Shown one piece after another: positions 32,132 through 43,942 of a stretch of 64,000 nt of DNA. The notes under the pieces are model-generated. The model saw only the letters and a list, made by a program, of their open reading frames with translations. It searched no databases and was not told where the DNA came from. The stretch spans positions 62,001-126,000 of the forward strand of contig JAOAPI010000045.1 in NCBI GenBank assembly GCA_025462865.1, in the 5' to 3' direction. Within the stretch, counting starts at the first letter, position 1, and every line of letters begins with the position of its first letter. The stretch is from Candidatus Sulfotelmatobacter sp. Its GTDB lineage: Bacteria > Acidobacteriota > Terriglobia > Terriglobales > Acidobacteriaceae. A program made the translations under genes and the position numbers.

Positions 32132-33067
32132 TTACGGATTTACTGAATTGCCCATCATGAACGCAAACAGCAGAGGAAGATAGATGACCGTGGCTTGCAA
32201 CACATGACGAGCCAACATTTTGGATCGCGGGCTGTTGATGGGCAGCTTGAGGAAAGCGAGTCGGGCGCCGAAATAGAAAAGGGCAAGACCCAGTACTATC
32301 GCTCCCACCATATAAATCTTGCCCGCCATTCCGAAAACGCTGGGCAAGACGCTAAGAGGAATCAGGATCAGCGAATAAGCCACGATGCGGCGCGCCGTCG
32401 ACCGCCCATCTTCTTCAACGACTGGCAGCATGCGAATTCCACCGCTTGCGTAATCTTCGCGGTACAGCCATGCGATGGAGAAAAAATGCGGGAACTGCCA
32501 CACGAAAAGGATGGCAAACAATATCAGCGCTCCCCATTCCAAATGGCCACGGGCGGCGGTCCAACCCAAAACTCCCGGCATCGCTCCAGGGAACGCGCCA
32601 ACAAAAGTGCAGATCGGAGAAATCCGCTTCAAAGGTGTGTAAGCGGCCAGATATACCACCGAAGTCAGAAGGGTCAATAATCCGGTCAGCGGATTGGTGA
32701 AGATTGCTAAGTATAAGGAGCCGCCAAGGGTGGCCAGCAACCCGGCGGTGGTCGCGTGAAACAGGCTCATCCGTCCTGCAGGCAGTGGCCGTTGCGCCGT
32801 GCGGCGCATGTTTGCGTCCACTTTATGCTCCATGACTTCGTTGAGCGCTGCCGTTCCGCTGGAGACCAGCCCGATTCCCAAAAGCGCGTGGAAAAGGCCC
32901 CACGATAACGAGGAGACACCAGCCTTCTGCGCACCGAAGTAGTAGCCGCACCACGCAGTCATGACGATCAAGGTGGTGACACGCAGCTTCACCAGTTCTG
33001 CATAATCGCGCAATAGGGAAAATGCATGTCTGCGAGTGGGAACCAGCGGCTGGGTCATCGTGCTCAT
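32132..33067 (-). CDS. ctaB: Protoheme IX farnesyltransferase (heme O synthase)
   Basis: Attaches a farnesyl group to heme b to give heme O, the precursor of the heme A used by A-type oxidases. A 311-residue UbiA-family membrane protein with about eight or nine helices. The prenyl-diphosphate binding region NEVMEHKVDANMRRTAQRPL (near residue 78) is a form of the N-D/E-x-x-D/E-x3-D motif. The second loop has YTPLKRISP. It lies about 3 kb from the cytochrome oxidase operon on the opposite strand, which fits a role in building that oxidase. No heme A synthase (CtaA) gene is present in the window. Confidence 0.93.
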   Translation of the reverse strand: MSTMTQPLVPTRRHAFSLLRDYAELVKLRVTTLIVMTAWCGYYFGAQKAGVSSLSWGLFHALLGIGLVSSGTAALNEVMEHKVDANMRRTAQRPLPAGRMSLFHATTAGLLATLGGSLYLAIFTNPLTGLLTLLTSVVYLAAYTPLKRISPICTFVGAFPGAMPGVLGWTAARGHLEWGALILFAILFVWQFPHFFSIAWLYREDYASGGIRMLPVVEEDGRSTARRIVAYSLILIPLSVLPSVFGMAGKIYMVGAIVLGLALFYFGARLAFLKLPINSPRSKMLARHVLQATVIYLPLLFAFMMGNSVNP

Positions 33068-33260: not shown

Positions 33261-34589
33261 CTACTGGCTTGCCGATGATCCTGCGGTATCGAAGGTTTCC
33301 GGCGGATCAAAAAAACATTGGTGCCATAAAGCCGCATCCGATAATTTGCCCACCTTCCATTGCTGGAGCGTTGGCAGGGTGGCGGCGATCATTCCCCCGT
33401 CAACCGAATCGAAGATCAGCACGATTCCTGCCAGTTCCTCCGGCTTCTGCGATAGTTCCGCATAATTCCTATCCAGCACGGACTTGGCAAATTCCAGTCT
33501 GAGTTGAGGGCCGGAATCTTTCGCTTCGTTGATTTTTTCCACCGAGACAATTTTAACGGTCCTGCCGCGCAAGGGCGCCCAATTTCCAGGGAATGGAGCT
33601 TTTTCTTCCCTGGTCACATGGAAAAGGTCGGCCGCAACGGGAACGGACGCTGCAGGGGTGGGCAAATCGCCCTCGGGAACGCTATCGGGCATTTCGAGAT
33701 TGTTCCGCCAGATCCATCCCCGGGATAAGCCAGAAATTCGCACGTGAACCCAGTCCCGATTGAAATCCAGCATTTCGAACTCGTCGTGCGCGCTGGCCAA
33801 GAACATCGCCTTCGCCGTCAGGCTGGCTGTTCCGACCACTGGTGTTCCCGACTTCTTCACAGCGACTAGATTCTTGGGATGAGCCTGGTTTTTAAGAATC
33901 TCTTCGAGACTTTCTGCCTCAGCCTGCAGACCGTTGGGATCGTTATCCGCCCGGCGTTTCTCGCCGGCATTCGGGGTGCTCTTCTCGCGCCCTGCCAACT
34001 CCTGCTCAGCCAATCCCTGTGACAGCGACGATGAAAAGCCGCCGCCGGTTTGCGGAAGCCTCGGTACTGGCGCCGAGACGCTCGGCTCTGCGGCAGCCGA
34101 GGCCTTTGTAGTTGGAGCGGCCTGAGAAATTGCCGACGAGCCCGAACCAGATTGCTGCGCCTTGCTGGTCAATTGTTCTGCCAACTGATCCAGAAGGTCC
34201 GCTTCCAACCGTCCGTTCGATGTAAGCACTTGGTATCCCGAACGGCCTGCAACCGGATCGGCGTACCAGGCGGTGACTTGCACACTCACCCGCACCACAG
34301 ACCCGCCCTTAGGACTTGCGCTGACGTTAAATTTGGACTGGTAATAACCGCGCTGATAATGATCCAGGGGATGATTGGTCGAGATCGCGAATCCATCGAC
34401 CACGGGGAGCCTTCCCGCTGTCGCGGTCTGCATCGAATTAAGCGCCCTCTCTACCGTGGTCTTGGATTGAGGAAAACTTCGCTCTAACCCACCCGCTTGT
34501 CCTCTGGCCCTATCGCAACCAAAGACTACAACGGTCAGCGCCAAGGCATGACAGAGAGCTTTCCCGCATACGTCCAGCCGACGATTCAT
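33261..34589 (-). CDS. Exported SH3-like domain protein
   Basis: A 442-residue exported protein. The start at 34589 overlaps the stop of the upstream gene (ATGA), which suggests translational coupling. The N-terminus has a signal peptide. Residues ~40-140 form an unrecognised domain with basic and aromatic residues (HYQRGYYQSKFNVSASPKGG). A Ser/Gly/Ala-rich linker follows. An SH3-like domain lies near 255-310 (ASAHDEFEMLDFNRDWVHVRI, split at ~270; then GWIWRNNLEM). The final ~110 residues are of unknown fold. Bacterial SH3 domains often bind peptidoglycan or protein partners. The upstream gene carries a similar SH3-like end, so the two products probably act together. Confidence 0.65.
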   Translation of the reverse strand: MNRRLDVCGKALCHALALTVVVFGCDRARGQAGGLERSFPQSKTTVERALNSMQTATAGRLPVVDGFAISTNHPLDHYQRGYYQSKFNVSASPKGGSVVRVSVQVTAWYADPVAGRSGYQVLTSNGRLEADLLDQLAEQLTSKAQQSGSGSSAISQAAPTTKASAAAEPSVSAPVPRLPQTGGGFSSSLSQGLAEQELAGREKSTPNAGEKRRADNDPNGLQAEAESLEEILKNQAHPKNLVAVKKSGTPVVGTASLTAKAMFLASAHDEFEMLDFNRDWVHVRISGLSRGWIWRNNLEMPDSVPEGDLPTPAASVPVAADLFHVTREEKAPFPGNWAPLRGRTVKIVSVEKINEAKDSGPQLRLEFAKSVLDRNYAELSQKPEELAGIVLIFDSVDGGMIAATLPTLQQWKVGKLSDAALWHQCFFDPPETFDTAGSSASQ

Positions 34590-35596
34590 GGTTGCTCCAA
34601 CTCGTCGCGTTGCATCCATCCGTGTTGCCCGTCGTGGGTCTCAACGCCATACCAATAGGGCGTTGAAATCAAAATCAGCACTTCCGTCCCTGCGGTCAAC
34701 GTTTGCAGCGTGCTCGCAGTGTGGAAGGGAGCGGATTTGAGCGGCGCGCCCGGCGCCTTCACTAAGCGCTCCACCTGTTTTCTTAAATCTTTCACGCGCT
34801 CTTCCAGGGGTTGGCCTGAACGCGTTTCAGCAGGTTGCGTAGCTGCAGCTGGCGCCCCAGACATTGAAGCACCTTCGGCGACCTTCGAGTCGACGGGCGC
34901 CGCAGGGGACGCCTCCGTCAACGAGGAGCTGTCAGTTTGCATCGCGAGGTTCTGTTTCTTCTCCAGCTGTTCCTGCCGCTCCTTCTGAGCTTCCGCGTTC
35001 TGCGTCTTCATTACCTCGATGGCTTCGAGATGGTCATGAATGTCCTTGTACTCCGCGCTTTCAACCGATCCATTGGATTGATGCACAACCCGCCGGAAGT
35101 CTTCCGCAAACAGCGCATTGATGCGCAAGATCGTATTCTTCTCGCCTTGAGGCTGCACCACGTATCGCACTACCAGCGTTCCGACATCACCGCTGTCCTT
35201 GAAGTTGCGGGGATCGATCGCTTGCTCGCGAACCTTGTAGAACACCTTGCCACCCTCGTTCCACGCGGGAAAAAGCCGCGAGGAACTTGCGGCTTTCGCG
35301 CCAGCGACAAACTCGTCCTTGTTGTATTCTTTGGTTCCACGGATCACGCCGTTCTGCGCGATGTCCTCAACAACCGTAGCTACTTCAGTCTCCGGCATAG
35401 GCACGTTGACGATCAGGCCTTCGCCGTAGCTCAATTTATCTTTTGCAAGGCTTGCAACCGGCAGGGCGATCACCCAAACGATAACAATCACTAGGAGAAG
35501 GTGCCAAAGGGTGAAATCCGGTTCGATCACCATAGCGGATGGCCGAGGTTGACCAAGTCCGCCGGTCGCGTTATTAGCCTTGCTCGGGAAATCCAT
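34586..35596 (-). CDS. Membrane-anchored protein with C-terminal SH3-like domain
   Basis: A 336-residue protein. One membrane segment (WHLLLVIVIVWVIALPVASL) lies near residues 30-50. A periplasmic domain of ~130 residues follows (GEGLIVNVPMPETEVATVVEDI; FYKVREQAIDPRNFKDSGDVG). Then come a charged coiled coil (AQKERQEQLEKKQ) and an SH3-like end (LTAGTEVLILISTPYWYGVE, then GQHGWMQRDEL). The start codon is uncertain: I use ATG 35596; GTG 35629 and ATG 35533 are possible. It is the first gene of a minus-strand pair that diverges from the cytochrome operon and shares its promoter region. The function is unknown. Confidence 0.62.
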   Translation of the reverse strand: MDFPSKANNATGGLGQPRPSAMVIEPDFTLWHLLLVIVIVWVIALPVASLAKDKLSYGEGLIVNVPMPETEVATVVEDIAQNGVIRGTKEYNKDEFVAGAKAASSSRLFPAWNEGGKVFYKVREQAIDPRNFKDSGDVGTLVVRYVVQPQGEKNTILRINALFAEDFRRVVHQSNGSVESAEYKDIHDHLEAIEVMKTQNAEAQKERQEQLEKKQNLAMQTDSSSLTEASPAAPVDSKVAEGASMSGAPAAATQPAETRSGQPLEERVKDLRKQVERLVKAPGAPLKSAPFHTASTLQTLTAGTEVLILISTPYWYGVETHDGQHGWMQRDELEQP

Positions 35597-35953
35597 GTTG
35601 CGACCCCAAAAACCGATCCACGAATCCACTGTAAAGCTCCGCTGCTCTGCTTCACGAGTCTCGTACTACGGGCAGGAAGCTGTCAACTCCGCTACACAAC
35701 TCCACCTGCAAACCTCGACATGTAAAGATTTATGTCACCCAGATGTAAAAAAAATGTCAAAACTACTTGCACTTCGTCTTTCGCCCGTAGTACGATTTCG
35801 CGCGGTAGGGTGGTAGAACCTTTGTGACTTTTCTTTATGGGCAAGAAATGCGAGGGGTTCGCATTTCGAGCCTTTCTCCGCAAGTATCTGCTTATGTGTT
35901 AACTCATTTTTCAAAAACAGATCGTGATTTGATCTTTGCCGAGGAGTCCGGCC
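35597..35953. promoter_or_regulatory. Divergent control region of the cytochrome operon
   Basis: About 357 bases between the SH3-like gene pair and the respiratory operon. It holds a perfect 13-bp inverted repeat (arms 35661-35673 and 35783-35795) and, between the arms, two direct copies of ATGTAAA-N4/5-ATGTCA (35720-35737 and 35743-35759). The rightward gene has GAGGAG at 35941-35946. No protein gene is evident. Confidence 0.6.
35661..35795. promoter_or_regulatory. 13-bp inverted repeat with arms 109 bp apart
   Basis: TCGTACTACGGGC at 35661-35673 is the exact reverse complement of GCCCGTAGTACGA at 35783-35795. A chance perfect 13-bp match at this distance is unlikely. The arms could be paired operators for a looping regulator controlling both divergent operons, or could form a long-range hairpin. 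Confidence 0.6.
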
Positions 35954-37381
35954 ATGCGCCTTTCGAGTCATTCGCGTCTTCGCGATGTTTCCTACTTTGG
36001 TTCGTTGGTACTGATCGCCGTATTCGTGATGCTTGCCTGCAGCCCGCGCGCGAATGCCTTGCCGGCCTTCGCCAGAAAATACGGGTTGCGCTGTTCGGCC
36101 TGCCACGAGTCTTGGCCAATGCTGAATTACTTCGGCCAAAAATTCAAAGATAACGGCTACCAACTCATGAACGACCGCGATGCCCCGATCTGGCAGAGTC
36201 CGGGCTACTGGCCGGTCACCTTCCGCATGGTTTCCATGTGGCACCGGGTCAGCACCGGTAAAGTCTTGGTAGATACTTATTCACCGGGACTCACCGATCC
36301 AACCGGGGTAGCGATTCAGCGGATCACGACTTCTGGCTTTGATTTGAGCGGCCTCGATCTTCACACTGGCGGCACCCTGGACAAGAATATTTCGTTCTTC
36401 CTGCTTCCCTCTTCCGATCCGGCTGGTTCCTTTCACTTTGAAACAGTCATGGCGCGCCTCGACAATCTGTTTGGCAGCCCTTGGCTGAACATTAAGCTCG
36501 GAAAATTTGAACTCGACAACCTTCTTTCGGAGAAGCGTCCGCTCACCCTTACCGGCAACGGCGGTATTTACCAGCTCTACCACTTCATTCCGGTTGGCGA
36601 TGGAAACATTTTCGGCCAGATCGGTGACAACCAGCTGGGCGCCGAACTAATGGGCCACTCCTGGAATGACCGCACCCGTTATTCCGCAGCTCTCCTCAGC
36701 TCGAATGATGGCACCACCCAGCTTCCGTACGGCAATGCTTACAGCGGATTCTTTACCGCCAGCCAGGCTTTCGATACCGGAAAAGCTGGCGTGCAGCGCA
36801 TTGGGTTCTATGCCATGATCGGCCAGGCGCCAACCACTTGGCGCACCAGCGGCGGAGCAACCGGCTTTCTGCCCGGCGCCGCAATTGGCAACAAGTCCTT
36901 TAGCCGCGAGGGCTTCGTTGGACAGTTTTACTTCGGTCAGCATGTGGATCTTCAGGTCGTCACGCAGCATGGGCAGGATAGCGCGTGGTTTGGACAAGGT
37001 TACGGCGACTTGATTGACGGAGTTGCCACCCTGAACAACACTACCGGAACTGTGTTGCCCGCGGGGTCACGGTCTCCCAGTTGGAACGGCGTTCTGTTTG
37101 AGCCTCACTACATCTACAGCCCTCAGCTCATATTCATTGGGCGCTATGAGACGATCCGCATGTCGCAGCAGTCGACTCCGGGTACACCCTCGAACTTGGG
37201 CAATATCTCGAGCTATACCCTTGCCTTCCGTTACAACCCGTTTATGACCAGCCGGGCAGGTTTTGCCTGGCACAACGAATACAACTGGCTGCACCAGGAT
37301 GGCACGGGGCCGAGTCTAGGCCTGACGAGCACCAACGTAAACACCAGCGAAGTGATGACAGGATTCGACTTTGATTTCTAA
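35954..37381 (+). CDS. Cyc2-like monoheme cytochrome-porin fusion
   Basis: A 475-residue exported outer-membrane protein. GAGGAG seven bases upstream supports ATG 35954. After the signal peptide (to about Ala36) comes a short cytochrome segment: LPAFARKYGLRCSACHESW with a CxxCH heme site (C47, C50, H51), then YFGQKFKDNGYQL. This matches the signature around the heme of Cyc2-type fused cytochrome-porins (PxFARxxG-xx-CxxCH ... FG-x-x-FK-x-x-GY). The remaining ~400 residues have the alternating pattern and terminal Phe (FDFDF) of an outer-membrane beta-barrel. Cyc2 proteins oxidise Fe(II) at the cell surface in iron oxidisers; here the substrate is unknown. It is the first gene of a respiratory operon, which fits electron import toward the oxidase. 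Confidence 0.75.
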   Translation: MRLSSHSRLRDVSYFGSLVLIAVFVMLACSPRANALPAFARKYGLRCSACHESWPMLNYFGQKFKDNGYQLMNDRDAPIWQSPGYWPVTFRMVSMWHRVSTGKVLVDTYSPGLTDPTGVAIQRITTSGFDLSGLDLHTGGTLDKNISFFLLPSSDPAGSFHFETVMARLDNLFGSPWLNIKLGKFELDNLLSEKRPLTLTGNGGIYQLYHFIPVGDGNIFGQIGDNQLGAELMGHSWNDRTRYSAALLSSNDGTTQLPYGNAYSGFFTASQAFDTGKAGVQRIGFYAMIGQAPTTWRTSGGATGFLPGAAIGNKSFSREGFVGQFYFGQHVDLQVVTQHGQDSAWFGQGYGDLIDGVATLNNTTGTVLPAGSRSPSWNGVLFEPHYIYSPQLIFIGRYETIRMSQQSTPGTPSNLGNISSYTLAFRYNPFMTSRAGFAWHNEYNWLHQDGTGPSLGLTSTNVNTSEVMTGFDFDF

Positions 37382-37406
37382 GCTTCGGTTTTCGGAGAGG
37401 GACAGC

Positions 37407-38276
37407 ATGCAACGGAATAACTTGCGGAAGTGGTCGCTTCTACTGGGTGCAGTTGCGATTGTTGCGCTCCCAATGCCTTCCTGGGCGCAGCTCACGAAAT
37501 ACGATCTGGAATCGCGCATGGGCGTGGAAAGCCACGTTGGAAACATCACCGGCCACGCCAAGGCCGCCAAGGCGGACTACAGGCGATACTGCGTCGTCTG
37601 CCATGGTGAGTTGGGGGATGGAAATGGCGAAAGCTTCCCTTGGATTGACCCCAAGCCCCGCGACTTCCAGTTAGGTGTGTTTAAGTGTCGTTCCACGCCG
37701 ACCGGAACGTTGCCTACCGACCAGGATCTGTTCGATACCCTGGCCCGCGGCCTCGACCGATCCAACATGCCGCAATGGAGCACCTTCACCAAGCAGCAGC
37801 GCGCCGACCTGGTGGCATGGGTTAAGCATTTCTCGCCACGTTGGACAAACGAAAAGCCGGGAACGCCGATCACCATTCCTCCGGAACCGGAAGTCACCCC
37901 GGAGCGCATCAAGGCCGGCCGCGATGTATTTGCCCGGGTGCAGTGCTGGAAGTGTCACGGCGTACTCGGTCAAGCCAACGGTCCTTCTGCCGCAACGCTT
38001 ACCGACGACCTCGGCCGTCCGATCGCGGCCTACAACTTTACCGAGGGCGCTCGTCCTAAGTGCGGTGATACCGATCGCGACATTTACAGAATCTTCATGA
38101 CCGGCTTGGACGGCACTCCAATGCCTTCATTCGCCGACAACATTAAGCCCGACGAGGCCTGGGATCTGGTCTTCTATTTGCGAACGCTTATGTCCCAAAA
38201 TAGCAAGGAAAAAGCCATGGCTAAACAACTTGGCTTGAAGCCAGTTGACCCGAATGCCCCGGCGGGACAACAGTAG
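37407..38276 (+). CDS. Periplasmic diheme cytochrome c
   Basis: A 289-residue exported protein with two class I cytochrome c domains. GGAGAGG upstream supports ATG 37407, and the signal peptide ends near PSWAQ. The first heme site is CVVCH (C62, C65, H66) with a likely Met ligand in SNMPQW (M121). The second is CWKCH (C180, C183, H184) with a likely Met ligand in GTPMPSF. It probably carries electrons in the periplasm between the outer-membrane cytochrome-porin and the oxidase. It lies 25 bp after that gene. The C-terminal tail is Pro/Lys-rich. Confidence 0.88.
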   Translation: MQRNNLRKWSLLLGAVAIVALPMPSWAQLTKYDLESRMGVESHVGNITGHAKAAKADYRRYCVVCHGELGDGNGESFPWIDPKPRDFQLGVFKCRSTPTGTLPTDQDLFDTLARGLDRSNMPQWSTFTKQQRADLVAWVKHFSPRWTNEKPGTPITIPPEPEVTPERIKAGRDVFARVQCWKCHGVLGQANGPSAATLTDDLGRPIAAYNFTEGARPKCGDTDRDIYRIFMTGLDGTPMPSFADNIKPDEAWDLVFYLRTLMSQNSKEKAMAKQLGLKPVDPNAPAGQQ

Positions 38277-38336
38277 GCTCAGAATGGCATCAAACATTCA
38301 CCTACGTAGTTCTTAACGGTAAGGTAAGGAGAGTTT

Positions 38337-39080
38337 ATGAGCAAGAGATACAATTTTGCGGCTGTACTATCAGCGGTAGTTCTAATCTGCTGCGGTGCAC
38401 TGATTCTGAATCAAAACGTCAACGCTGCGGGAGAAGGCAAAATTACCGGAACGGTCAAACTCGATGGCCCTGCTCCACATATGAAGGGCATTGACATGGG
38501 TAAGGATCCTTATTGCGCAAAGGCCCATGCCAATGACCCCGCACACCTGGAAACCTATGTGGTCGGCGCAGACGGGGGATTGGCGAATGTAGTTGTGTAC
38601 ATCTCGGAAGGGTTGAGCGGGAGTGCGGCGGCCGAGAGTTCCGCGACAGAACCAGTTTTCGATCAGAAGAACTGCATGTACACTCCGCACGTCTTGGGGC
38701 TGACGGTCGAGCAAAAATTTAAGGTGACCACCAGCGATCAGACCACTCACAACATTCACCCACTGCCGAATCCGATGACTGGCAATATCCCGTGGAACCA
38801 GTCTCAACCCCCGGGAGCGGCGCCGGTCGAAAAGAGCTGGAAAGCTCCAGAAATGATTCCGGTGCAGTGCAACATCCATCCTTGGATGCACGGCTGGTTT
38901 GCCGTGGTTAAAGGGCCTCACGCGACCAGTGACACCAAAGGTACTTACACGATTAGCAACGTGCCTGCGGGAAATTACACGGTCACAGCCTGGCAGGAGG
39001 CAGCCGGAACCCAGACTCAAAAAGTCACGGTTGCGGCCGGCGGCGCTGGCTCTGCCAACTTCACCTTCAAGCCGAAATAG
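38337..39080 (+). CDS. Periplasmic blue-copper (cupredoxin) protein
   Basis: A 247-residue exported protein. It has a signal peptide, then a beta-rich domain. The type 1 copper ligand set is visible: His138 (TTHNIH), then Cys178, His181 and Met184 in VQCNIHPWMHGW, which fits the C-x2-H-x2-M pattern of plastocyanin-like proteins. The last ~55 residues (GTYTISNVPAGNYTVTAWQ) form a carboxypeptidase-regulatory-like beta sandwich. AAGGTAAGGAG precedes the ATG. Sitting between the diheme cytochrome and oxidase subunit II, it is probably an electron carrier or a copper donor to the oxidase. Confidence 0.8.
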   Translation: MSKRYNFAAVLSAVVLICCGALILNQNVNAAGEGKITGTVKLDGPAPHMKGIDMGKDPYCAKAHANDPAHLETYVVGADGGLANVVVYISEGLSGSAAAESSATEPVFDQKNCMYTPHVLGLTVEQKFKVTTSDQTTHNIHPLPNPMTGNIPWNQSQPPGAAPVEKSWKAPEMIPVQCNIHPWMHGWFAVVKGPHATSDTKGTYTISNVPAGNYTVTAWQEAAGTQTQKVTVAAGGAGSANFTFKPK

Positions 39081-39198
39081 CTGCAAGGGATACTGCAACA
39101 CAATTGAATCTCCGAATCGCCGCGGTTAAGAGCTGCGGCGATTCCAGCACAATACGACAAGAAAGAACGGCCTTGATGTTGGCCAAAGGCGGGACGAT

Positions 39199-40002
39199 AT
39201 GGCGAAGATATTCGCGGTAACGATCATCCTGATTGCGATTGCTTCGGCGGTTCCCATCGTGATGCACATGTGGCCAATGCCACAGGATATCTCCACCCAT
39301 GGCGCCTTGATTGACGAGCAGTACGCGGACACGATGCTGGAAGCCGGTATTTCTTTTCTCGCCTCTCAATTTCTTCTGGCATTCTTCATTTGGAAGTTTT
39401 CTGCTCCACGTCCGGGGGAGAGAGTTAAGAATTTTCCTGGTGGGGCCACTGGATTAGTAGCTGCCGCCTTCTTGTTGGTCGGTACAGAAGTCCTGGCTCT
39501 AGGCGTGTTCGGCACGAAGGCTTGGGCGAGCGTATATCTCACTCCTCCGGCTGCCAATGCGGTTCCGGTACAGGTACAGGCCGGACAGTTCGCTTTTTAC
39601 TTTCGCTACCCTGGTCCCGACGGAACATTCGGGCCGATACATCCCGAACAAATCAGTGAAGCCAATGCGAACTTCTTCGGTTTGGATACAACCCATGATC
39701 AGGATTCGAAAGACGATATCGTAGCCGCCGAGATGGCGATTCCCGTGAACCGCGAGATTCACCTGCTGATGCATTCCAAGGACGTTGGGCACTCTTTCTT
39801 CGTCCCGGAACTACGCATTCAACAGGATTTTGTCCCGGGGCTGGATGTTTCGGTCCATTTCACCGCAACAAAAGTTGGCAGATACGAAATTGTATGTACT
39901 CAGCTTTGTGGCCTCGGACATTACAACATGAAGGCGTATCTCGAGGTGAAGTCCCAGGAAGATTACGACGCATGGATCAAACAGCAATCAGCATTGCAAT
40001 AA
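39199..40002 (+). CDS. coxB: Cytochrome c oxidase subunit II
   Basis: Carries the CuA centre that receives electrons and passes them to subunit I. 267 residues: two or three membrane helices (about 4-25, 50-70, 85-110), then the cupredoxin-fold domain. CuA ligands are present: His in DVGHSFFVP, and Cys, Cys, His and Met in CTQLCGLGHYNM, with Gln where Glu is usual (that residue binds through its backbone). The aromatic electron-entry patch is FAFYFRYPG rather than the usual Trp-rich stretch. There is no fused cytochrome c domain, so a separate donor such as the upstream diheme cytochrome is needed. Confidence 0.92.
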   Translation: MAKIFAVTIILIAIASAVPIVMHMWPMPQDISTHGALIDEQYADTMLEAGISFLASQFLLAFFIWKFSAPRPGERVKNFPGGATGLVAAAFLLVGTEVLALGVFGTKAWASVYLTPPAANAVPVQVQAGQFAFYFRYPGPDGTFGPIHPEQISEANANFFGLDTTHDQDSKDDIVAAEMAIPVNREIHLLMHSKDVGHSFFVPELRIQQDFVPGLDVSVHFTATKVGRYEIVCTQLCGLGHYNMKAYLEVKSQEDYDAWIKQQSALQ

Positions 40003-40134
40003 ACGCTGGAATTTGGTGTAAGTCGTTGCGGAAGGGCACGGTTTTGGCCGAGCTGTTCGGTGCGATCAAAAAACAATGCAGGCTTTAGTCCTGAGATTCA
40101 GACCCAACATCTCTTTTGAGGTGAGGTGACCACA

Positions 40135-41916
40135 ATGCACGACATGTCCGCACCTGCGGCGCATCACGGAGCACCAACCAGCTTTATTCGAAAGCACGTC
40201 TTCAGCCTTGATCATAAAGTCATTGGGAAGCAGTATTACGCGCTGGCATTGTTGGCGGCTTTGATCGGTATGGCGCTTTCCTGGATCATGCGCATCCACC
40301 TTGGATGGGGCAACTTCGCCATTCCTGGTCTGCATTTGCTCTCCAGTACGGGCGCACCGGGTAACGTGCTGACCCCTGAGTACTATCTGCAATTGATGAC
40401 CATGCACGGGACGATCATGGTCTTTTTCGTGCTTACGACTGCCCCATTTGCCGCGTTCGGCAATTTCTTCTTGCCTATCCAGACCGGCGCGGAAGACATG
40501 CCGTTTCCGCATTTCAACATGATGTCGTTCTGGGTGACATTTGTGGGCTTTTGGGTGCTGATCGCATCATTTTTTGTGGGTGACGGGCCGACTCTCGGAG
40601 GCTGGACGCAATACGCTCCGCTGAGTGCCATCGGTTCAGTTGGCGGCCCGGGCCAAGGCCTTGGCGTAGTCCTTTGGGCCACTTCGATTGCCATTTTCTG
40701 CATTGGTCAATTGCTCGGTTCCTTGAACTTCATCACCACAACGCTCGACATGCGCTGTAAAGGAATGTCGCTGATGCGGCTTCCGCTCACTGCCTGGGCA
40801 TGGTTCATCACCTCGGTGATGGGATTGACCGCATTCGCGGTCCTCATGCCCGCCTGCATCCTTCTAATTCTCGATCACGTGGCGGGAACCAGTTTTTTCG
40901 TGGCTTCCAACCTTGTGATCAACGATCAGGTCTTGCCGCACTCCGGCGGATCAACCCTGCTCTGGCAGCACTTATTCTGGTTCTTCGGACATCCCGAGGT
41001 TTACATCGCAATCGTGCCGGGCATGGGGATCGTTTCTCACGTGCTGATCACGAATATGCGCAAGCCGATGCTCAGTCACCGCGTGCTTATTTACTCGATG
41101 GCCGCGCTCGCCGTTCTCAGTTACATGGTTTACGGCCACCATATGTTCGTCAGCGGGATGAATCCTGTTTCCTCGCTGGCCTTCTCGTTTCCTACGCTCG
41201 TAATCACAATTCCTTCAACCATCGTAGTCTTGATGTGGCTGGGAAGTCTGTATGGCTCGAAGCTGCAAATCAATTCGGCATCGTTGTTCTCGCTGGGTTT
41301 CATTTCGATGTTTATCAGCGGCGGCGTCAGTGGCTTCTTCCTGGCACAACCCTCGATCGACATCATGTTGCACGCCACCTATTTTGTGGTCGGCCACTTC
41401 CACCTGGTGATGGGCGTCGCGGCCATGTTTGGGATCTTCGCGGGAACTTACTTCTGGTTCCCCAAGATGACGGGCCGCATGATGAGCGAACCCTTGGGCA
41501 AAGCGCATTTCTGGCTAAGCTTCGTGGGCGCCTACTGTATCTTTATGCCATTCCACTACCTTGGCATTGCCGGAAACGTGCGGCGCTACCAGGCCTTCAC
41601 GGACGATTACCTGATCCCGCTGATTCCCGTGCACAAGTTCATCACGATCGCGGCGCTCATCACGGGTTTCGCCCAGTTGATCTTTGTCTACAATCTGATT
41701 TACAGCCGGTTCAAAGGGCCAGTGGAAACAGACAACCCGTGGCAGGGCACGTCGCTGGAATGGAGCACGGCCACGCCCCCGCCCCACAATAATTTTGGAG
41801 CCACTATGCCCGTGGTCTACCACGATCCCTATCAGTACAGCGTCGAGGGAGCAAGCAGCGACTTCGTAATGCAGACCTCGCCGGAAAAAATTAACAATCC
41901 GAACGAAGAAAAGTAA
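40135..41916 (+). CDS. coxA: Cytochrome c oxidase subunit I, K-channel lysine replaced
   Basis: The catalytic subunit: reduces O2 to water at the heme a3-CuB centre. 593 residues with about 12 membrane helices. ATG 40135 is chosen for its GAGGTGAGGTGA site. Conserved residues: CuB ligands in GHPEVY (H286 with E288 and cross-link Tyr290) and H335-H336, heme ligands H421 and H423, and D-channel Asp in AEDMPFP. The helix that normally reads VPTGIKVF reads IPSTIVVL here, so the K-channel Lys position is Val364. HDTYYVVAHFH reads HATYFVVGHFH, so an Asp is also lost. Subunit II precedes it and two subunit III genes follow. Confidence 0.94.
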   Translation: MHDMSAPAAHHGAPTSFIRKHVFSLDHKVIGKQYYALALLAALIGMALSWIMRIHLGWGNFAIPGLHLLSSTGAPGNVLTPEYYLQLMTMHGTIMVFFVLTTAPFAAFGNFFLPIQTGAEDMPFPHFNMMSFWVTFVGFWVLIASFFVGDGPTLGGWTQYAPLSAIGSVGGPGQGLGVVLWATSIAIFCIGQLLGSLNFITTTLDMRCKGMSLMRLPLTAWAWFITSVMGLTAFAVLMPACILLILDHVAGTSFFVASNLVINDQVLPHSGGSTLLWQHLFWFFGHPEVYIAIVPGMGIVSHVLITNMRKPMLSHRVLIYSMAALAVLSYMVYGHHMFVSGMNPVSSLAFSFPTLVITIPSTIVVLMWLGSLYGSKLQINSASLFSLGFISMFISGGVSGFFLAQPSIDIMLHATYFVVGHFHLVMGVAAMFGIFAGTYFWFPKMTGRMMSEPLGKAHFWLSFVGAYCIFMPFHYLGIAGNVRRYQAFTDDYLIPLIPVHKFITIAALITGFAQLIFVYNLIYSRFKGPVETDNPWQGTSLEWSTATPPPHNNFGATMPVVYHDPYQYSVEGASSDFVMQTSPEKINNPNEEK

Positions 41917-41960
41917 TCCTTCTATCGGGTACTAAGTTTTTAGTAAGGGGAATTAGCAGT

Positions 41961-42635
41961 ATGGCAACAACGCTGCCTGAACCGCCAAAAATCGAGCGTG
42001 ACCGTTTACCGAGTCAGGGCTCCGGAAATGGGGGCTGGCGGAATCTCGTTCCGGCTAGTGCGGATCCTAGGCAGGTCAAGGACTATTCTCCTCCGCCGGC
42101 GAGTACTGGCATTTGGGTAGGCCTCGCGGCCATTACGATGACCTTTGCCGCCTTTACCAGCGCATTGGTCGTCCGTCAGGGTGGCGCGCCAGATTGGCGC
42201 CACATCACTTTGCCTCCCGTGCTTTACCTGAATACCCTGTTGATTGTTGCCAGCAGCGTCACCCTTGAAATCGCGCGCCGCCGTGTGGCGGCTTTCATGG
42301 GCGGCCTGAAGGATCCTGCCGCGAACCCGGCCCGCTGGCTCTTTGTCACGCTGTTCCTCGGTCTCTCCTTCGTTGCTGGCCAGACCTATGCCTGGCTGCA
42401 ACTCAAAGCTCAGGGATTCGGGCTGGCAACCAACGTAAGTTATTCCTTCTTCTATGTTCTGACCGTAGCCCACGCCGTGCATCTGGTTGGAGGGATTGGT
42501 GGTCTAGTGCGCGTCGTTGGAAAGTTGAATAAATCTGTGCTGAGACGAAGCACTCTGGACGCCACTTCGCGCTATTGGCATTTCATGGGTGTCCTCTGGG
42601 TGTACCTGCTTTTTCTGCTGTGGATGAAGCTCTAA
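41961..42635 (+). CDS. coxC: Cytochrome c oxidase subunit III
   Basis: A 224-residue subunit III-type membrane protein with five helices after a ~45-residue polar Pro-rich N-terminus. Typical elements: the first helix TGIWVGLAAITMTFAAFTSALVV (split at about residue 60), GQTYAWLQLKAQGFG, the THAVHLVGG-like AHAVHLVGGIGG, and SRYWHFMGVLWVYLLFLLW at the end. It supports stability and proton uptake of the oxidase. ATG 41961 lies 45 bp after coxA. A second, shorter subunit III-like gene follows. Confidence 0.88.
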   Translation: MATTLPEPPKIERDRLPSQGSGNGGWRNLVPASADPRQVKDYSPPPASTGIWVGLAAITMTFAAFTSALVVRQGGAPDWRHITLPPVLYLNTLLIVASSVTLEIARRRVAAFMGGLKDPAANPARWLFVTLFLGLSFVAGQTYAWLQLKAQGFGLATNVSYSFFYVLTVAHAVHLVGGIGGLVRVVGKLNKSVLRRSTLDATSRYWHFMGVLWVYLLFLLWMKL

Positions 42636-42656
42636 TAGTCAAGGGTAGGAGGCAAC

Positions 42657-43280
42657 GTGAGCCAAGCCGATTTGACGTTACACGGACACTCAACCGCGGG
42701 GGCGATGGCAGAACCCACGTTCTCGGTCCCCGCAAAGAAGATGGCGATGTGGCTGTTCATCATCGCAGACACAGCCACCTTTGCCGGGTGTCTCTTCGCG
42801 TATGGTTTTATTCGTAACGCCTCCCAAAATTGGCCCAGACCGTTTCACAGCATCACCAACGTCGCGGTCATGACCCTTATTCTGCTGACCAGCAGTTTAA
42901 CCATGCTTGTGGGGGTTAAAGCCGCGCAGGCGGGCGACAAGCCTAAGGCCTTCCGTTGGATCATGATTACAGCTGTGGCCGGAGTCCTGTTCGCCGCTCT
43001 TCACCTGCGGGAATGGATGGGGATGATCGCGGAGGGCGCAACGCTGTTTCACAATCCCTGGGGCACGCCCCTGTTCAGTTCGCTGTTCTTCAGTATTACG
43101 GGCTTGCACCTGCTGCACGTGACCGGCGGCGTGGTCGCATTGATCGTGGTAGGAGTTCGCTATCAGGGCGGACGATACAAAGCCGATGATATTGAAATCA
43201 CCGGACTGTACTGGCACTTCGTGGATCTAGTGTGGATGTTCGTAGTGCCCCTGGTCTATCTGTTGAATCTGTCTCACTAA
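42657..43280 (+). CDS. Second cytochrome c oxidase subunit III-like protein
   Basis: A 207-residue five-helix subunit III homologue. It starts with GTG 42657, after GGTAGGAGG. Its first helix (KKMAMWLFIIADTATFAGC), the HLREWMGM motif, the central SITGLHLLHVTGG and the late GLYWHFVDLVWMFVVPLVYL are typical. The two subunit III genes differ in length and sequence. One may be the canonical partner of CoxA while the other acts as an assembly or extra structural subunit; which is which cannot be decided from sequence. Confidence 0.85.
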   Translation: MSQADLTLHGHSTAGAMAEPTFSVPAKKMAMWLFIIADTATFAGCLFAYGFIRNASQNWPRPFHSITNVAVMTLILLTSSLTMLVGVKAAQAGDKPKAFRWIMITAVAGVLFAALHLREWMGMIAEGATLFHNPWGTPLFSSLFFSITGLHLLHVTGGVVALIVVGVRYQGGRYKADDIEITGLYWHFVDLVWMFVVPLVYLLNLSH

Positions 43281-43298
43281 AAAAGCAGGAGCCAAATT

Positions 43299-43610
43299 AT
43301 GACTACCGCTGAAACACACAAGAGCAGTGGGATGGGGAAGGATCTTGCGATCTACCTTTGTATGCTGGTGCTGGCGGGGATACAGTTCGTAATCGCCTTC
43401 CAAAATATCAGCGCGCAGCAGATGTTGGAGCGCATGCTGATTGTGGCCATCCTCGAGGCTGGGCTGGCACTGCTGTTTTTCATGCATCTGGCAGACAATC
43501 GGGGCCTGCGATGGTTCGTCATTATTTTCACCGTCGCTGTTATTCTGGGGATGCAGTACGGATGGACTGACAGCTTCCGGATTGCCAACGGCGTGACTTG
43601 GGCAAAGTAG
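43299..43610 (+). CDS. Cytochrome c oxidase subunit IV (CyoD/CtaF type)
   Basis: A 103-residue membrane protein with three helices: LAIYLCMLVLAGIQFVIAF, ERMLIVAILEAGLALLFFMHL (split near residue 55) and WFVIIFTVAVILGMQYG. The pattern with FFMHL in the second helix is that of bacterial oxidase subunit IV. It lies 19 bp after the second subunit III gene, within the operon. It is needed for assembly rather than catalysis in related oxidases. Confidence 0.85.
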   Translation: MTTAETHKSSGMGKDLAIYLCMLVLAGIQFVIAFQNISAQQMLERMLIVAILEAGLALLFFMHLADNRGLRWFVIIFTVAVILGMQYGWTDSFRIANGVTWAK

Positions 43611-43639
43611 TTTTAGGCAGCAAAGCGGATCAGAAATTT

Positions 43640-43942
43640 ATGAAGCATTCGCGAGCAATCTGGACTTTGGCAATTGCCGTGGTCGGAATTATCCTCCTGC
43701 TGGCGCCGGTCCCGGCATTTGCTCAGAGTTGCGCGCTCTGCTACACGCAGGCCGCATCCTCAGGCGCTCGCATGATTCAGGCTCTGAAGAGTGGGATTAT
43801 CATCCTGATCGCTCCGCCGACCTTCATGAGCCTGGGAGTAATTGTCGTTTGCTACCGCCGGCGCAACAAAACTCGTGACGGTGTCGATGAATCCGACCGC
43901 GAGTGGAAGAACGACGACTTCCCTCGCGACCTTCAAGATTGA
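43640..43942 (+). CDS. Small exported CxxC protein at end of oxidase operon
   Basis: A 100-residue protein. ATG 43640 gives a signal-peptide-like N-terminus ending in APVPAFAQ. Then comes SCALCYTQA, which has a CxxC pair, followed by one membrane helix (GIIILIAPPTFMSLGVIVVCY) and a charged cytoplasmic tail. It is the last gene of the plus-strand respiratory operon, 30 bp after subunit IV. The periplasmic CxxC just before the membrane could bind copper or heme or act in oxidase assembly, but CALCY is not a heme c motif. I do not recognise a named family. Confidence 0.65.
   Translation: MKHSRAIWTLAIAVVGIILLLAPVPAFAQSCALCYTQAASSGARMIQALKSGIIILIAPPTFMSLGVIVVCYRRRNKTRDGVDESDREWKNDDFPRDLQD

Follow-up and report, generated by a model that had tools for sequence, protein, structure and literature searches.

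A Cyc2-like cytochrome-porin heads an oxidase operon in Terriglobia: a candidate electron-input chain from a surface donor to oxygen

The rus operon of Acidithiobacillus carries its genes in the order cyc2-cyc1-cup-coxBACD, according to the excerpts of PMC10654088 at hand. Its first product belongs to a family that the available sections of PMC8406198 liken to the porins OprO and OprP, and for which they give a consensus of AXPXFAR[Q/K][T/Y] before CXXCH and PXL after it. Here we describe a Cyc2-like gene at the head of an oxidase operon in a genome of Candidatus Sulfotelmatobacter (6.08 Mb, 189 contigs, 98.45% complete), a taxon assigned by NCBI to Terriglobia, Terriglobales. The window, i.e. 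the whole stretch of 64,000 nucleotides that was analysed, comprises positions 62001-126000 of contig C13. On balance we favour reading the operon as a respiratory chain for electron input, leading from a surface donor, most likely Fe(II), to O2. The excerpts of PMC10654088 place PioA/MtoA homologues in Acidobacteriia and name no Cyc2-oxidase operon for Acidobacteria, and the sections of PMC8239418 at hand treat K-channel variants and iron oxidisers without naming this operon. A literature search of titles and abstract openings, which covers few subscription journals, returned no description of it among the matches listed.

The operon consists of nine genes on the plus strand (35954-43942), separated by intergenic gaps of 18-123 bases. 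All nine are present in the order listed by a first-pass annotation of the same DNA, and domain families were assigned by Pfam and NCBIfam; these two collections have no curated model for genes 1 and 9 or for the copper site of gene 3. The start formerly set at 35597 falls in the upstream gap, and the first gene begins at 35954.

Gene 1 (35954..37381) encodes a Cyc2-like fused cytochrome-porin of 475 aa with a signal peptide, a heme segment and a beta barrel with the ending ...FDFDF. After the signal peptide the protein reads ALPAFARKY-GLR-CSACH-ESW-PML, and this is the one CxxCH in the whole protein. The Cyc2 motif is matched exactly, with ALPAFARKY at residues 35-43 and five residues between R41 and C47. 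No variation is seen at FARKY, the cysteines and histidine of the heme motif, P55 and L57 in alignments of 20 and of 56 homologues. The Cyc2-like heme signature claimed in the first pass is thus borne out against the full published consensus. An AlphaFold2 model (56 alignment rows) reached a mean predicted local distance difference test score (pLDDT) of 76.8 and a predicted template modelling score (pTM) of 0.76, with strands from residue 88 to 474; DSSP divides these into 19 strand pieces, the exact strand number not being fixed by the model. In a Foldseek search of the PDB the best match of the model was OprP (2o4v, expectation value (E) 1.2e-12), OprO ranking third, and VIA-align gave Z scores of 25 to PorB and 24 to OprO/OprP. 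These comparisons span mainly model residues 78-475; no cytochrome fold was returned for the heme segment, which is uninformative at a pLDDT below 50. As modelled, the 475-aa product would count as an OprO/OprP-like barrel protein of more than 365 aa, which is the Cyc2 criterion. Of the 16-strand barrel with the heme inside that the first pass set out as a check, the model supports the OprP/OprO-like barrel; it fixes neither the 16 strands, which also belong to the Cyc2 criterion, nor the position of the poorly modelled heme segment.

Sequence comparisons set the protein apart from the Proteobacterial type. Pfam, NCBIfam and PHROGs gave no match for gene 1, Pfam gave none for a Proteobacterial-type homologue in the same genome either, and a PDB sequence search returned just three weak matches to viral proteases. 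Profile comparison of the gene 1 family with Cyc2-like proteins (seven sequences, six from named Proteobacterial plasmids and one from contig C50 of the same genome) aligned 59 columns with an E of 1e-15 and 46% identity. These columns run from the last part of the signal peptide through the heme segment and do not extend beyond the cytochrome end. Another Acidobacterial cytochrome-porin group aligns with the gene 1 family over 419 columns (E 2e-42). In a tree of 44 rows, which omits loci L195, L196 and L202, the Proteobacterial and Acidobacterial types split at 100/100 support, and the gene 1 family, two rows from outside the class included, is held together at 100/97. Judged by these alignments, gene 1 encodes a predicted Cyc2-like cytochrome-porin of an Acidobacterial branch, perhaps the Cluster 3 that appears in the excerpts of PMC8406198 and PMC7029218.

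Two putative periplasmic carriers follow. The ATG of gene 2 (37407..38276) lies at 37407, leaving a 25-base gap after the cytochrome-porin gene; its product is a diheme cytochrome c with two CxxCH motifs (Pfam Cytochrom_C, E 9.4e-18). It matched PDB chain 6h5l_B, which we take to be a Kuenenia protein, with an E of 1.7e-54 (phmmer) and of 6.7e-67 with a profile of 24 diheme proteins. PDB 1h1o, presumably Cyc1 of A. ferrooxidans, was not among the 19 matches of this profile to E 0.01. The cytochrome adjoining an Ideonella Cyc2-like gene served as positive control and did match 1h1o (E 1.5e-35), and the window protein shares 20% identity with this control (E 0.001). By sequence, the diheme carrier is therefore assigned to the 6h5l_B family and not to cytochrome c4. 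Gene 3 (38337..39080) encodes a secreted type-1 copper protein (Cup) in which a cupredoxin domain is combined with a carboxypeptidase-regulatory-like domain (CarboxypepD_reg, E 4.4e-9). Its ligands H138 and C178-x2-H181-x2-M184 are shared without exception by the 20 homologues aligned. The profile of the copper protein matched the blue-copper protein 5fc9 (E 0.0017) and, more weakly, amicyanin; its structure model has a cupredoxin fold and matched 5fc9 best (E 1.2e-4), along with amicyanin and plastocyanin. The rusticyanin model TIGR03095 had no match in this 98.45% complete genome; among 14 control genomes only Sulfolobus acidocaldarius matched, below the cut-off, so that the controls contain no full rusticyanin.

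Genes 4 to 8 encode the oxidase. Subunit II (39199..40002) carries the CuA motif CTQLCGLGHYNM and matched COX2 (E 3.8e-11) and, under the cut-off, TIGR02866 (E 2.7e-33). Subunit I (40126..41916; COX1, E 7.3e-123) was aligned to PDB 7rh6 chain R and is assigned by sequence to the A-type (aa3). Two subunits III (41961..42635 and 42657..43280; COX3, E 1.3e-8 and 1.7e-11) and a subunit IV (43299..43610; COX4_pro, E 5.4e-8) follow. Gene 9 (43640..43942) encodes a small membrane protein whose CALCY motif, judged by eye, adjoins a membrane-like stretch; it is perhaps an assembly factor.

Subunit I lacks the lysine of the K channel. In the window protein Val367 stands at this position, which was located via the alignment to 7rh6, and the glutamate of HPEVY is kept; the roles of the D-channel, K-channel and HPEVY residues follow the Paracoccus numbering. 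We compared 64 operon-linked subunits I, namely that of the window and 63 of 75 different CoxA sequences that passed a length and no-X filter. None of them has the lysine (V 22, I 22, L 11, M 8, A 1), and none of the 64 has lost the HPEVY glutamate or the Asp and Asn of the D channel. Five other COX1-like genes are present in the genome, four with the K-channel lysine and one with Gln. The loss could mean weak or no proton pumping, as would be expected if Fe(II) were oxidised purely to protect the cell with no useful gain of energy. We consider this very improbable, as the D-channel residues and the HPEVY glutamate are retained throughout and a full oxidase would be an expensive detoxifier.

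Conservation of the operon was followed in three partly overlapping sets of loci. The named set was drawn from 168 matching stretches in named genomes, of which the best 80 were kept, all titled Acidobacteriota metagenome-assembled genomes (MAGs); the search patterns derive from Acidobacterial proteins, and absence elsewhere cannot be shown with them. The exact nine-gene order occurs in 51 of the 80 loci, and in three more it is followed by an additional gene copy, which rules out a chance grouping of the nine genes. Among the other 26, two (L118 and L121) have a rearranged oxidase and 22 meet a contig end. Where at least 7 kb of downstream sequence is available (57 loci), the diheme and copper genes are found in all 57, and CoxA and a homologue of gene 9 in 56 each. 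A class-wide set of 35 loci comprises all listed full-length matches from outside the genus except the fragments G336 and G126, together with the same-genus paralogues L094 and L096. With at least 7 kb downstream (30 loci), it has the diheme gene in 30, Cup in 27 and CoxA in 18. Within the genus, CoxA is present in 18 of the 19 loci with this much downstream sequence (23 loci in all). The first pass would have been contradicted by homologues occurring mainly apart from oxidase genes; the counts of 56/57 and 18/30 point the other way. In a search of the class, 118 of 299 genomes had some match at E 1e-5 and 37 of 299 one below 1e-80, the weaker matches being mostly short and located around the heme segment. 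The hosts of L070 and L083, whose near-complete genomes consist of 1 and about 30 contigs, may be isolates. A search of the phylum with the family profile at E 1e-40 found matches in 9 of 347 genomes, five of them outside the class.

One of these five links the same front end to a different oxidase. Genome G592 (L200:6072-13055, minus strand) has the order Cup, Cyc2-like protein, diheme cytochrome, CcoN, CcoO fused to a cytochrome, and a CcoS-like protein. Identity to the window proteins is 35% for Cup, 31% for the Cyc2-like protein and 51% for the diheme cytochrome. The NCBIfam matches of ccoN (1.6e-77) and ccoO (7.9e-35) have clear E-values and both lie under their curated cut-offs; that of ccoS lies just above. 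A front end shared between aa3 and cbb3 oxidases is, at the level of gene content, the strongest sign that it would feed a terminal oxidase. In a separate observation from genome G549 (L203:20-1754), a Cyc2-like gene directly follows a short open reading frame that, on visual inspection, looks like the last part of a cytochrome c peroxidase; this is perhaps a peroxide-linked variant.

In the proposed mechanism a soluble reduced donor, most likely Fe(II), would enter the pore of the cytochrome-porin and reduce its single c-heme. Electrons would then pass to the periplasmic diheme cytochrome, the type-1 copper protein, the CuA site in subunit II and finally the heme-copper centre in subunit I, at which O2 would be reduced. 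Energy would be gained by drawing protons from the cell interior along the D pathway, with the steps that depend on the K pathway altered or absent. The claim that every step from outside the cell to O2 is present stands for the list of parts; the electron transfer between them, its order, the outer-membrane location and Fe(II) as donor are what we infer. Overall, the Cyc2 signature, the barrel and the oxidase linkage of the earlier interpretation have stood, and the barrel sequence, the diheme family and the K-channel lysine have refined it.

The same chain could run in the same direction on Mn(II), reduced humics or phenolics, conductive minerals or other cells instead of Fe(II). Many of the host MAGs have titles naming palsa, bog or fen, i.e. 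organic-rich peat, which would suit such donors; we take the palsa and bog MAGs of the genus to come from Stordalen Mire. The excerpts of PMC9040806 moreover propose Cyc2 for Mn(II) oxidation in Ca. Manganitrophaceae. In the available sections of PMC8406198, however, the tested members of the wider family, one from each of three clusters, oxidise Fe(II), and a narrow pore entry is argued to favour small soluble donors. We regard a donor other than Fe(II) as unlikely, yet as the most serious of the alternatives.

Several observations speak against an electron-input chain running from Fe(II) to O2. The heme segment of gene 1 (residues 31-83) has a pLDDT below 50, which puts heme placement beyond the model, and the barrel gives no sequence alignment with Proteobacterial Cyc2-like proteins in the profile comparison. 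According to the published excerpts, the function of Cluster 3 is the most uncertain (PMC8406198), and Acidobacterial homologues are tied to Cyc572 of Leptospirillum (PMC10654088). The oxidase swap is known from one genome, and the other four out-of-class matches have no oxidase in the surrounding DNA examined. Within the class, 12 of 30 loci have no adjacent oxidase and keep the cytochrome-porin and diheme genes, nine of them with Cup as well. An oxidase is likewise missing next to L060, within 8 kb past the copper gene of L110, and in the 1.2 kb between the copper gene of L120 and the contig end. The genome has no match to RuBisCO (PF00016), found in 4 of 41 genomes overall, and Fisher tests within the genus gave no association between the window family and the further operons headed by Cyc2 (p 0.6 and 1.0). 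Finally, among 20 oxidase loci away from the operon in relatives, chosen by hand from a longer list, subunit I has the K-channel lysine in 14 and lacks it in six, and these six have a Cup gene directly upstream and no match to the cytochrome-porin nearby.

The last result rules out loss of the lysine as a mark of Cyc2 linkage alone; the loss tracks Cup-fed oxidases and not the cytochrome-porin as such. Four exceptions keep the lysine: L258 has Cup directly upstream, and in L262, L268 and L269 a Cup-like gene lies 2-3 kb upstream. The Cup-headed, K-less operons without a cytochrome-porin are L252-L257, of which L252, L253, L255 and L256 end, by eye, in a probable heme O synthase. Such operons, like the class-wide front ends without an oxidase, would also fit ordinary respiration, in which the oxidase, copper and diheme proteins are fed by quinol and the cytochrome-porin merely shares their operon as a redox-gated porin, a sensor or a metal-handling protein. 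This seems improbable to us. The diheme gene lies downstream of the cytochrome-porin in every named and class-wide locus with sufficient sequence, the front end recurs with a cbb3 oxidase in a genome outside the class, and the genome of the window has five other COX1-like genes that would serve ordinary respiration.

Further Cyc2-headed modules occur in the genome and its relatives. Contig C50 of the same genome (L042:5096-9111, minus strand) carries a Cyc2-like gene of the Proteobacterial type; next come genes for a monoheme cytochrome c, a Rieske protein and a cytochrome b to which a cytochrome c domain is fused. Elsewhere, a module of Cup, a flavin adenine dinucleotide (FAD)/4Fe-4S protein, Rieske protein, cytochrome b and octaheme cytochrome stands whole behind a Proteobacterial-type barrel in 8 of 20 loci, with one more cut by a contig end, and behind an Acidobacterial-type barrel in 7 of 12. 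As both barrel types head one and the same module, the barrels look interchangeable. Octaheme-module loci of the two barrel types include L208 (7902-16241), L218, L214, L217, L207, L216 and L215, in the last of which Cup lies on the opposite side, and L237-L242, L246 and L250. In L210, L211 and L212 an Acidobacterial-type cytochrome-porin, Cup and a multiheme cytochrome occur without Rieske or cytochrome b. On a plasmid of Acidithiobacillus ferrooxidans YQ-N3 (L219:6860-9156) there is a Cyc2-like gene as well as a gene for a c-type cytochrome, and similar matches were found on two Acidiphilium plasmids. We infer an uphill electron role for the second Cyc2-headed module. That related cytochrome-porins head Rieske and cytochrome b operons could also be taken to suggest electron export, with quinol-derived electrons leaving through the cytochrome-porin. 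We give this almost no credence for the window operon, whose partner is a terminal oxidase and as such a stronger oxidant than any rival external acceptor.

The window family occurs in 33 of the 37 genus genomes compared, and the octaheme protein and the Proteobacterial-type Cyc2 occur in 19 each. Twenty of the 33 genomes with the window family also match the octaheme protein or the Proteobacterial-type Cyc2, and the Fisher tests given above rule out obligate pairing. The octaheme protein and the Proteobacterial-type Cyc2 do co-occur in the genus (p 0.0009); the former had no match in the genome of the window. Calvin-cycle autotrophy was set aside for this genome, which has zero PF00016 matches. 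Since no RuBisCO was found, autotrophy is unsupported here, and the chain would likely supply supplementary energy to a heterotroph. Full-length matches to the RuBisCO large-subunit family are present in three genomes of the same genus (G009, G012 and G014).

Upstream of the operon lie three genes on the minus strand. Two encode divergent secreted proteins, one (34586..35629) with a C-terminus that weakly resembles SH3 domains (SH3_3, E 1e-4, below cut-off) and the other (33261..34619) without a Pfam match. In loci with 6 kb of upstream sequence, each has a homologue somewhere in 51 of 53 loci of the named set and in 20 of 31 of the class-wide set, and the two (33261-35629) may belong to the electron-chain system. 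The third gene (32132..33067; UbiA, E 1.7e-49) encodes a UbiA-family protein that is probably the heme O synthase CtaB; its homologue is present in 38 of 53 named and only 1 of 31 class-wide loci. A promoter scan was uninformative (5 found, 5.7 expected), and 14 terminators were found with 10.1 expected (standard deviation 3.4).

Acidobacteriota of this class are abundant in acid soils and peat. Tentatively, and with less conviction than for the operon itself, we suggest that Terriglobia may hold iron-oxidation machinery that parallels that of Acidithiobacillus but was put together separately. It would consist of this downhill operon and, in part of the lineage, a second operon, also headed by Cyc2, in which a bc-type complex or an octaheme/NAD(P)-linked module could drive electrons uphill. 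Acidobacteriota of acid soil and peat that are seen as polymer degraders would then make facultative use of external electrons, and an oxidase without the K channel would suit a donor of high potential. If the chain works as proposed, some of the aerobic Fe(II) oxidation or other electron uptake in acid soils and peat is carried out by bacteria that are not counted as iron oxidisers, because their cytochrome-porin has no Pfam or NCBIfam model. The K-less oxidase poses a testable question of bioenergetics. Collinearity with rus despite a non-orthologous diheme cytochrome, together with the swap from aa3 to cbb3, amounts to a natural experiment on the requirements of an electron-input chain.

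The locus resembles each of the described systems in part. Like the Cyc2 family in the excerpts of PMC8406198 and PMC7029218, gene 1 combines an N-terminal monoheme segment bearing the motif with an OprP/OprO-like barrel; it has the KY variant of the motif and falls on a branch separate from the Cyc2-like proteins of Proteobacterial plasmids (100/100). With the Leptospirillum Cyc572-Cyc579 system, as outlined in the excerpts of PMC10654088, it shares a cytochrome-porin, a soluble cytochrome c and a terminal oxidase. It differs from that system in its aa3-type oxidase and its copper protein, and the match to the cytochrome 579 model (NCBIfam NF033864) reached 40.9 bits against a cut-off of 280, reflecting general cytochrome c similarity. 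The Leptospirillum oxidase is, we assume, of the cbb3 type, as in G592. The closest likeness in gene order is to the rus operon of Acidithiobacillus, where a cytochrome-porin, a diheme cytochrome c, a copper protein and oxidase subunits II-I-III-IV also follow one another. Of the rus proteins encoded on the A. ferrooxidans chromosome, Cyc1 was the one compared by sequence, via PDB 1h1o. Cyc1 of rus is a c4 cytochrome, whereas the diheme protein of the window is of the 6h5l_B family, and the window adds a second subunit III and the small CALCY protein; the CarboxypepD_reg-like domain is presumably an addition relative to the A. ferrooxidans Cup. Filing the locus as a rus operon is ruled out, since the diheme cytochrome is not a c4 and no rusticyanin was found. 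We read the operon as rus-like in function and separately built, a variant of the Cyc2-to-oxidase chain.

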